A DNA stretch of 64,000 nucleotides from Tessaracoccus timonensis (GTDB taxonomy: Bacteria > Actinomycetota > Actinomycetes > Propionibacteriales > Propionibacteriaceae): the NCBI RefSeq assembly GCF_900343145.1, contig NZ_LT996886.1, forward strand, positions 2,418,001 to 2,482,000, given 5' to 3'. The stretch's first letter is position 1, and each line of letters starts with the position of its first letter. Below, in pieces: positions 10,239-13,984 of the stretch. The position numbers and the translations under genes were made by a program. A model generated the notes under the pieces. The model worked only from the letters and a program-made list of their open reading frames with translations, searched no databases and was not told where the DNA came from.

Positions 10239-10691
10239 ATGCGCCCTGCATATCTCGTACTAGAAGACGGCCGAACGTTTCGAGGTTCGAGCTTCGGACG
10301 AGACCGAGAGGCGTATGGCCCGCTGAGGGCTTGCACCGCCATGGTCGGCTACCAGGAAGCCCTCACCGACCCCGACGCCGCAGGATCAATCCTCATGTTC
10401 ACCACGCCCCACATCGGCAACACTGGTTGGAACGACGAGGATTCCTGCTCGGAGCGCATCCAGGCCTCCGCAGTTGTCATTCGCGACATGGTCTCCAAGC
10501 CGTCAAACTTCCGCTCTACGAGAAGCTTCGAAGAGGCTCTCATGACCGACGACATCGTCGCCCTCACCGAGATCGACACTCGTGCGCTGATGCGTCACCT
10601 GAGCGACCATGGCCCCCTGTGGGGCGCCGTGACAACGCGCACCGATACCGACGCTGTCTTGGCCGAACTGCGCGCTCGAAAGGATGCCTGA
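10239..10691 (+). CDS. carA: Carbamoyl-phosphate synthase small subunit, N-terminal domain only (no glutaminase domain)
   Basis: The 150-residue product matches only the N-terminal domain of Car[18 protein letters not shown] at 4-20, [17 protein letters not shown] near 35-51, [12 protein letters not shown] near 58, [15 protein letters not shown] near 86-100 and [16 protein letters not shown] near 110-125. Normal CarA is about 360-390 residues and continues into a class I glutamine amidotransferase domain with a Cys-His-Glu triad. Here the protein stops at RARKDA, and the TGA overlaps the carB ATG (TGATG). There is no room for the missing domain in any frame. It could support an ammonia-dependent synthase or be a decayed relic. 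ATG at 10239 is preferred over the GTG at 10233 because of the GGAAGG sequence upstream. Confidence 0.85.
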
Positions 10692-13600
10692 TGCCTCGTC
10701 GTAACGATATTTCCACCATTCTCGTGATCGGCTCCGGGCCGATCGTCATCGGCCAAGCCTGCGAGTTCGACTACTCCGGCACCCAGGCCTGTCGTGTGCT
10801 TCGCAGTGAGGGATACCGGGTGGTGCTGGTGAACTCCAATCCGGCGACGATCATGACCGACCCCGACTTCGCAGACGCGACATACGTCGAACCCATTACT
10901 CCGGAGTTCGTCGAGCAGGTGATTGCCAAGGAACGCCCCGACGCGCTGCTGGCTACCCTCGGCGGTCAAACCGCGCTCAACACCGCCGTGAAGTTGCACG
11001 AAACCGGTGTGCTGGAGCGCTATGGCGTCGAACTCATTGGCGCCTCCGTCGAAGCAATTCAGCGCGGCGAAGACCGCGACGAGTTCAAACACATCATCGA
11101 GAGCATGGACTACATCGACGGCGGCGCACCCGAGGTGGCCCGCTCCGTGAGCTGCCACTCGATGGACGAAGTGCTCAGCGCCGCAGATGATCTCGGCTAC
11201 CCGGTGGTCGTGCGCCCCAGCTTCACGATGGGCGGAGTGGGCTCAGGGTTCGCCCACAACGAGGACGAACTGCGCTCGATCGCAGGCGCTGGCCTGGCAG
11301 CGAGCCCAGTCACCGAGGTGCTCATCGAGGAGTCCGTCCTCGGCTGGAAGGAGCTCGAGCTGGAGCTCATGCGTGACAGCGCCGACAACATCGTCACCAT
11401 CTGCACCATCGAGAACCTCGACCCGATGGGCGTGCACACCGGCGACTCGATCACCGTCGCGCCAGCACTCACCCTGACGGCACCCGAGGTTGAGCGCATG
11501 TGCGCCATCGGCCACGGCATCATCCGTGACGTCGGCGTCGAATCCGGTGGATGCAACATTCAGTTCGCCATCAACCCCGACGACGGCCGCATGGTTGTCA
11601 TCGAGATGAACCCCCGCGTTTCACGCAGTTCAGCGCTGGCCTCGAAGGCGACGGGCTATCCCATCGCCAAGATCGCCGCCAAGGTTGCCGTCGGATACAC
11701 GCTCGACGAGATCACCAACGACATGACCGGCGTGACGACCGCGCTCGAGGAACCCACCGTCGACTATGTGATCGTGAAAGCGCCCCGGTTTGCGTTCGAG
11801 AAGTTCCCTGCCGCGGATTCGACGCTCACCACACATATGAAGTCCGTCGGCGAGACGATGGGCATTGGCCGAACGTTCCCTGAAGCGCTGGGCAAGGCGC
11901 TGCGTTCACTCGAGAGCGCTGAGGCACCCTTTGACTTCGTGTCCGAGCCTCGCCCCCTCGACGAGTTGCTGCCGCTGCTCGTGCGCCCGCACGACGGCAG
12001 GCTGCAGGCGGTGATGGAGGCCTTGCGCGCGGGGGCCAGCGCCGAGCAGGTGTTCGACGCCACCAAGATCGACCCGTGGTTCATCGATCAGCTCGTGCTC
12101 GTGCTCGACATGGCGAACCAGATTCGAGATGCCGACGAGCTCACACCAGCATTGTTGGAACAGGCCAAGGGGCTCGGTATTTCCGACGAGCAGATCGCCC
12201 AGCTGCGATCCATCAAGCAGGATGTCGTGCGTGGGGTGCGTCACGCACTCGGCATCCGTCCCGCGTACAAGATGGTGGATACGTGCGCCGGCGCATATCC
12301 CGCGCGCACGCCGTATCTCTACTCGACGTACGAGCGGGAGTCTGAGGTGCCATCGCGCACCAAGGAGGCCGTCCTCATTCTTGGATCCGGCCCGAACCGG
12401 ATCGGACAGGGCATCGAGTTCGATTACTCCTGCGTCCATGCCGTGCAGGCGCTGCGAGAAGCCGGATACGAAACCGTCATGATCAACTGTAACCCGGAGA
12501 CGGTCTCCACCGACTACGACACCGCTGATCGCCTCTACTTCGAGCCGCTGACCATCGAAGATGTGCTGGAGATTTATCACGCGGAAGCGCAGGCCGGCCC
12601 GGTTGCGGGTGTTATCTGCCAGCTCGGCGGGCAAACGCCGCTCGGGCTTGCCCAAGCGCTAAAGGATGCAGGCCTTCCCATCGTCGGAACGAGCCCCGAG
12701 GCTATCGACCTTGCGGAGGAGCGCGGCGCGTTCGGGCGCGTGCTTGCCGCCGCTCAGCTTATGACCCCGAAACATGGGATGGCGCACAGCCAGGCAGAGG
12801 CGCGGGCCATCGCCGCCGAAATTGGGTACCCGGTCCTCGTCCGTCCCAGTTACGTACTCGGCGGCCGGGGCATGAAGATCGTTTACAACGACACCGCACT
12901 CGATACCTACATCGCCGAAGCCGCCAGAGTCAGCGACGATCAACCCGTGCTCGTCGACCGCTTCTTGGCAGACGCCGTCGAGATCGACGTCGATGCGCTC
13001 TACGACGGGCAGGAACTCTACGTGGGCGGCATCATGGAGCACATCGAGGAAGCAGGCGTCCACTCCGGCGACTCTGCCTGCGTGCTGCCCCCGATCACGC
13101 TGTCCGACGCCGCCATAGAACAGATCTGGGCCGCTACTGAGGCAATAGCCAAGGGGGTCGGGGTGCGAGGACTCATCAACATCCAGTTCGCACTCCAGGG
13201 CGATACGCTCTACGTGCTCGAAGCCAACCCCCGTGCCTCGCGCACCGTGCCGTTCGTTTCCAAGGCCACCAACACGTCGCTGGCCAAGGCTGCGGCGTTG
13301 ATCATGCTGGGGCGCAGCATTGATGAGTTGCGATCCCAGGGGTGGCTGCCCAAGGACGGTGACGGAGCGTTCCCGAGGCCTGGCGCCCCCGTCGCTGTGA
13401 AAGAAGCAGTGATGCCGTTCAACCGCTTCCGCACGAGCTCTGGCGGCTTCGTCGACACGGTGCTCGGCCCCGAAATGCGCTCGACCGGCGAGGTCATGGG
13501 CCTGTCAGACACCTTTGGCACGGCGTACGCCAAGAGCCAAGCCGCTGGTGGCTGGGCGTTGCCAGATCGAGGAACGATCTTCGCCTCGATCGCCGACCGC

Positions 13601-13984
13601 GACAAGCGCAACGCCATCTGGCCGCTGCGCAGGTTCGCCGACCTGGGCTTCAAGGTGCTCGCTACGCGCGGTACCGCATCGGTGCTGCGTCGCAACGGCG
13701 TGGCGTGTGAAGAGGTGCGCAAGATGTCCGAGTCCGACGGCACAGGGCCGAGCACCGTCGACCTCATCAAGGAAGGCAAGATCGACCTGATCTTCAACAC
13801 CCCAGGTGGCGGGGCGACGGGGGAGAGCACCCGCGAGGCGGGCTACTCCATCCGCACCGCTGCCGTGTTGGCCGACGTTCCCTTGATTACGACGGTGCCT
13901 GGCCTGGCGGCAGCTGCGCAGGGCATCGAAGCGAAACAGCGAGGCGAGGTCGGCATCAAGTCGCTGCAGGATTGGAGCCGATGA
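10691..13984 (+). CDS. carB: Carbamoyl-phosphate synthase large subunit
   Basis: Makes carbamoyl phosphate from bicarbonate, ammonia and two ATP. The 1097-residue length is complete: two homologous ATP-grasp halves, carboxyphosphate domain (about 1-400) with [19 protein letters not shown] and [12 protein letters not shown], oligomerisation domain (about 400-550), carbamate domain (about 550-935) with [17 protein letters not shown] and [11 protein letters not shown], and an MGS-like allosteric domain at the C-terminus ([16 protein letters not shown]). No lesions were seen. Because the partner CarA lacks its glutaminase, glutamine cannot be the nitrogen donor unless a GATase is encoded elsewhere. 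Coupled to the pyrD-like gene by ATGA. Confidence 0.95.

Follow-up and report, generated by a model that had tools for sequence, protein, structure and literature searches.

The carA gene of Tessaracoccus timonensis encodes only the N-terminal domain of the small subunit of carbamoyl-phosphate synthase (CPS) and is directly followed by a complete carB, and the two genes very probably specify a functional, ammonia-using CPS which works without glutamine hydrolysis, in which the CarA N-domain would serve as a structural partner left by an in-frame deletion. Bacterial CPS is the textbook enzyme running on glutamine. Considered over all the genomes compared, the sequences point to an ammonia-only CPS that has arisen repeatedly, is probably functional and has kept the CarA N-domain. 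The locus is located in a stretch of 64,000 nucleotides (the window), and the genome it belongs to (G000) is a single contig of 2.759 Mb with 99.97% completeness.

The carA-carB Locus

The features of the locus are as follows.
9234..10222, + strand: efp and nusB, conserved upstream neighbours (same order in 13/13 genus loci)
10233..10691, + strand: carA, N-domain only (PF00988 match, E. coli CarA alignment, AlphaFold2 model)
10689..10693, + strand: TGATG, carA stop overlapping the carB start
10691..13984, + strand: carB, 1097 aa (CPS large-chain domains; 1112 bits to E. coli CarB)
13972..14910, + strand: pyrD remnant, open frame, probably inactive (lost invariant residues, low score)
14911..15068, no strand: pyrF site of relatives, empty here (no PF00215 match in the genome)

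The full order efp-nusB-carA-carB-pyrD-mihF is common to the 13 genus loci. The carA frame comprises 152 aa from the GTG at 10233 or 150 aa from the ATG at 10239, and the latter, which agrees with the start of the relative P0001, is probably the true start. The product matches the Pfam family CPSase_sm_chain (PF00988) over positions 1-125 of 126, where its 132.8 bits exceed the gathering score of 27 along the domain, while no other Pfam family, including the glutaminase family PF00117, was matched at E 0.001. Residues 3-148 of E. coli CarA are aligned to it without gaps, and in the E. coli crystal structure the glutaminase lobe presumably starts just past residue 148. The profiles of full-length CarA remain below their cut-offs (TIGR01368, 138.8 bits against 307.35; PRK12838, 140.3 against 221), and the Cys-His-Glu triad, the class I glutaminase requirement of CPS II, is absent from the protein. 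The AlphaFold2 model, which was based on 41 aligned sequences, displayed a mean pLDDT of 94.4 and a pTM of 0.89.

CarB is translated without a stop and contains both synthetase halves required of a CPS II large subunit, and the carA TGA (10689-10691) shares one A with the carB ATG. These results bear out the initial annotation, which had placed the carA start at 10239 (probably rightly), the end of CarA near residue 150 at the glutaminase border and the carA stop on the carB ATG, and had described CarB as complete.

Downstream of carB, the PyrD of the window has lost 33 of the 63 residues invariant in 64 relatives, as compared with a median of 0 and a maximum of 9 when each of the other rows is left out in turn, and scores 167.9 bits, the cut-off being 267; despite these losses, its frame is still open over 312 aa. 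Between pyrD and mihF, a PF00215 match is present in four relatives (G054, G084, G105, G112).

Origin and Recurrence of the Truncation

Ten full-length carA genes of the Tessaracoccus type were compared, eight of which end in Lys-Asp-Ala and nine of which overlap carB through TGATG. The truncated genes of the window genome and of G169 retain this ancestral 3' end (AAAGGAYGCC TGATG), and the overlap in G131, ATGCCTAA, is that of the full-length relative L102. Such ends are what an in-frame internal deletion would be expected to produce, and the suggestion, made earlier from the junction, of a deletion that kept translational coupling is supported by these relatives. The glutaminase domain would have been removed by this deletion, with the CarA tail and the coupled carB start being kept, and the retention of the N-domain could be partly due to the coupling.

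In the genus set, PF00988 was found in 38 of 39 genomes, and 34 of these 38 carry frames of at least 331 aa; the remaining four are the window genome, G169 (156 aa), G151 (60% complete, with a frameshift) and G168 (at a contig end). Among 147 genomes sampled from the family, one further contig-internal short frame was seen, that of G131 (157 aa). The short frames of G049, G065 and G123, judged from their coordinates, and of G058, judged from its sequence, look like contig ends or frameshifts. The wider family search gave PF00988 in 185 of 198 genomes, with the frames seen among the matches listed, and further short frames are possible. A carB lying directly after a CarA N-domain was found at 3 of the 130 loci with both carA-N and carB matches (some genomes being counted twice), namely those of the window genome, G169 and G131, the last two of which are multi-contig assemblies, with the CarB of G131 covered over 319 aa only.

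In the 44-row CarB tree, the window genome, on a long branch of 0.38, pairs with G112, whose CarA is full-length (97/87), then with G105 (100/95) and then with G054 (100/100). G169 falls within a five-row group whose other members are full-length (100/100), and G131, a long branch of 319 aa, joins L102 (99/95) and L143 (100/100). This topology points to three separate CarA truncations among glutaminase-bearing relatives. The comparison with sister genomes, which had been proposed as a check, was run and revealed that three CarB lineages have lost the glutaminase and that each has retained the N-domain. A different form of loss is found in G105 (L044), whose full-length CarA carries Gly-Asp-Ala at the Cys-His-Glu triad and can be regarded as a natural pseudo-glutaminase; its glutaminase domain scores 82 bits vs 134-146 in three relatives, and Cys-His-Glu is present in 126 of the 135 CarA frames read. 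If the pairing of the window genome with G112 is right, G105 would represent a fourth separate loss. The parallel losses and the dead CarA of G105, as well as the loss of pyrimidine synthesis described below, were absent from the initial annotation. Rows set aside in these comparisons were L053 and L167, both from frameshifted assemblies, the cut row L084, and L037 with its Cys-His-Asp triad.

Several related loci deserve a separate mention. The CarA of L037 (G111), with its Cys-His-Asp triad, is perhaps active, and the adjoining CarB is more distant (54% identity over the part seen). In G070 (L041 9883-11848), an AAA_21 ATPase and a DUF4276 protein are inserted between carA and carB, for which PADLOC gave HEC-01A (474 bits) and HEC-01B (190 bits), and the pair is a candidate for phage defence located within the operon. 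Gaps of similar size, about 2.5 kb, separate carA and carB in L039, L049, L098 and L161, the insert content having been read for G070 only. In G175, which belongs to the same family and is 96% complete, no PF00988 match was found, which may reflect either a real loss of carA or a gap in the assembly.

Residue Signatures in CarA and CarB

Three sites are characteristic of the window pair.
10374..10376, + strand: carA codon for Asp, at the alignment column of E. coli CarA Ser47
11480..11515, + strand: carB codons 264-275, of which 264, 271 and 275 do not vary among 85 normal CarBs and differ from them in each of the four lineages
11747..11749, + strand: carB codon 353, Phe in 85/85 normal CarBs and another residue in G000, G169 and G105 (G131 not covered)

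Ser47 of E. coli CarA, which we take to be a glutamine contact, is matched by Ser in all 106 distinct full-length CarA N-domains (a set that excludes the rows set aside, the three short ones and two G105 copies), and by Asp, Ile, Arg and Arg in G000, G169, G131 and G105, respectively. Forty-eight N-domain columns are invariant in the 106 sequences; the nine glutaminase-less or dead sequences, which are partly related and not all independent, retain 33-41 of them each and 19 in common. The columns lost in all nine are that of Ser47 and that of residue 152, the latter lying at the cut end. Within the window's own group of 11 sequences, 58 of 116 N-domain sites are invariant, and the variation follows that of the family (Spearman 0.49, p 2e-8).

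These patterns bear on whether the short carA is a decaying relic, with CarB as the only part that matters and the short frame surviving by chance or as a coupling leader. The eroding operon, with pyrD apparently dead and pyrF gone next door, and the kept coupling junction would fit such a relic, which is nevertheless improbable, since three lineages end at nearly one place (150-156 aa), the invariant N-domain columns are kept to the extent just given, the sites vary as if constraint continues, and pyrD and pyrF look intact in G169.

As for CarB, 415 columns are invariant in the 85 proteins partnered with a full CarA (rows shorter than 1050 aa and G168, which has a cut CarA, being excluded), and the window protein keeps 402 of them. 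The changed columns number 13 in G000, 12 in G169 and 5 in G105, and 10 of the 151 covered in G131, which was entered with 319 aa. When changed columns were drawn at random 200,000 times, no draw gave four common to three lineages (the maximum was 1), and among 400 triples picked randomly from the normal CarBs, not one had a changed column in common. Position 271 corresponds by alignment to E. coli Arg265, which presumably forms an interface with CarA Pro360/His361, where mutation is taken to perforate the ammonia tunnel. The simplest meaning would be that the changed CarB residues serve glutamine coupling only. Other changes of the window CarB, e.g., at 813 and 1050, are not shared by the other lineages, and these, together with the long branch, make some relaxed constraint on this protein possible.

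Short CarA Proteins beyond the Locus

A 150-aa protein on deposit for an uncultured Tessaracoccus is 87% identical to the window CarA, and a further eight proteins of the same type (P0003-P0010) show 70-94% identity; P0002, a source-less entry outside these eight, may be the window's own protein. The set of short proteins comprised 95 members at first and at least 309 after the best 120 of each of two further listings were added. Among the matches listed, 40 of 309 have no Ser in the Ser47 column, and lengths of 145-176 aa were found for 31 of these 40 vs 78 of the 269 with Ser. This column was used as a discriminator against contig-end fragments, and it is an imperfect one: P0080 has Ser and yet resembles the Ser-less group of P0074, while P0081 (114 aa) and P0299 (242 aa) have none and yet look like fragments. 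P0236 and P0263, in which Ser47 is kept, look like broken frames in draft genomes. Two proteins without Ser47 come from Leucobacter, a genus of the order Micrococcales, namely P0205, labelled Leucobacter chinensis (158 aa, 414-kb contig), and P0202 from Leucobacter sp. cx-42 (174 aa, 192-kb contig). Several of the short CarAs are annotated merely as 'hypothetical' or 'domain-containing'.

Misassembly, which had been named earlier as a finding that would overturn the truncation, was considered in this light. Poor assemblies do contain carA genes broken by frameshifts (L053, L167), short CarAs with Ser47 exist in draft genomes, and a sequencing or assembly error might likewise have removed the glutaminase domain here. 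The existence of the 87%-identical protein and of the eight others makes such an error unlikely; the nine come from other sources, the window genome is a single contig, its glutamine-site column has diverged, and G169 and G131 agree with it, so that the chance of an artefact appears negligible.

Glutaminases, Arginine and Pyrimidines in the Window Genome

A second full-length carA and a free amidotransferase were both sought, as had been recommended. No second carA was found, PF00988 being matched once genome-wide. PF00117 has seven matches, six of which were assigned to TrpG/PabA, GuaA, PyrG, HisH, PurQ and CobQ over NCBIfam cut-offs, while the seventh is a stand-alone class I amidotransferase (L005) under all cut-offs. 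None of the seven resembles the glutaminase of CarA, and a detached CarA-type domain elsewhere in the genome was rejected. The stand-alone enzyme does lend some credit to the idea that a separate amidotransferase, e.g., TrpG/PabA or the L005 enzyme, docks on CarA-N/CarB and delivers glutamine-derived ammonia. This arrangement is very unlikely, in that any coupling to a glutaminase should depend on the very CarB positions and Ser47 column that have changed, and in that glutaminase-domain matches of like partial coverage, as far as the domain match alone can tell, occur in the full-CarA relatives G054, G084 and G112.

The arginine enzymes ArgC, ArgJ, ArgB, ArgD, ArgH, ArgG and ornithine carbamoyltransferase each score over an NCBIfam cut-off. 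ArgC, ArgJ, ArgB, ArgD and ArgH are clustered together with a frame judged ArgR-like on visual inspection, and ArgG and one ornithine carbamoyltransferase are encoded elsewhere. With the arginine pathway complete, carbamoyl phosphate is therefore still of use. No match to PyrB, PyrC or PyrF exceeded its cut-off in the window genome, and all three are present in the four genus relatives searched (G054, G105, G112, G084), which suggests that pyrimidine synthesis has been lost. Because of this apparent loss, arginine is the one evident fate of carbamoyl phosphate, to which it would be directed in this organism. Loss of pyrimidine synthesis as a general cause of the truncation was rejected, for G169 is truncated beside intact-looking pyrD and pyrF (the pyrimidine genes looked at there), and it is also disfavoured by G131, with PyrF and PyrC over cut-offs; no PyrB over its cut-off was found in the latter genome, which is 88% complete.

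Between the relic and the ammonia-only CPS, the two possibilities raised in the initial annotation, the latter is favoured, without proof, by the recurrent loss, the 402 of 415 CarB columns, the arginine pathway and the parallel CarB changes. In the ammonia-only enzyme, the CarA N-domain would remain bound to CarB as a structural partner, the complex would be active while no longer hydrolysing glutamine, and free ammonia would presumably be the donor in the cell.

Relation to Known Carbamoyl-Phosphate Synthases

E. coli CarA/CarB (CPS II; PDB 1bxr, 1c30, 1jdb) shares with the window pair the operon order, the whole length of CarB and the fold family of the CarA N-domain. The window pair differs in having no glutaminase domain, Cys-His-Glu triad or Ser47, and in the changed CarB positions 264, 271, 275 and 353. 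The bacterial enzyme is classed in CPS II in a passage of PMC6022934, and the window enzyme lacks the glutaminase feature that defines this class. Tunnel-blocked or perforated variants of the E. coli enzyme are described, in a portion of PMC4655335, as having lost glutamine use with normal activity on external ammonia. Counting against the ammonia-only reading, a section of a 2018 review (PMC6245113) states that E. coli CPS can use ammonia only at concentrations probably outside the physiological range, and regards glutamine as the physiological donor of this enzyme and, by extension, of all bacterial CPSs. Among the matches listed in the open-licence PMC literature, no report of a natural bacterial CarAB without glutaminase was recognised.

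Human CPS1 (CPS I; PDB 5dot) has likewise lost glutaminase function, in its case by a change of the catalytic Cys to Ser (PMC4655335), and the window enzyme would also use ammonia only. In contrast to the window enzyme, with two genes and the domain gone, CPS1 keeps the domain in one chain, needs N-acetylglutamate and, by alignment, keeps Arg at the Arg265 position; its nearest parallel is the full-length G105 CarA with the Gly-Asp-Ala triad. The window enzyme is CPS I-like in its predicted nitrogen source, yet with two chains and no glutaminase domain it stands outside CPS I. The small CPS of Methanobrevibacter smithii (41 kDa; an excerpt of PMC6022934) is another natural CPS with fewer domains, although it is an archaeal dimer of one synthetase unit rather than a CarA-N/CarB pair. 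For the CPS III of Alcolapia fish, part of PMC7657897 proposes a convergent move from glutamine to ammonia via loss of a glutamine-binding residue, whereas this eukaryotic single chain keeps its catalytic triad.

Significance

On the basis of these comparisons, it seems reasonably likely that the Actinomycetota have repeatedly evolved an ammonia-only CPS, with at least two truncations and one triad loss in Tessaracoccus, a further case in another genus of the Propionibacteriaceae and probably one in Leucobacter; that CarB would depend on CarA-N as a structural or regulatory subunit; and that CarA Ser47 and CarB Asp258, Arg265 and Ile269 (E. coli numbering) would be needed only for glutamine coupling. 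This proposal is directly testable, for the named species Leucobacter chinensis appears to carry a short CarA. It also raises what the CarA N-domain does by itself, and offers a natural experiment that would separate the residues of glutamine coupling from those of synthesis. Natural, repeated loss of the glutaminase would contradict the view, expressed in part of PMC6245113, of glutamine as the donor of all bacterial CPSs.
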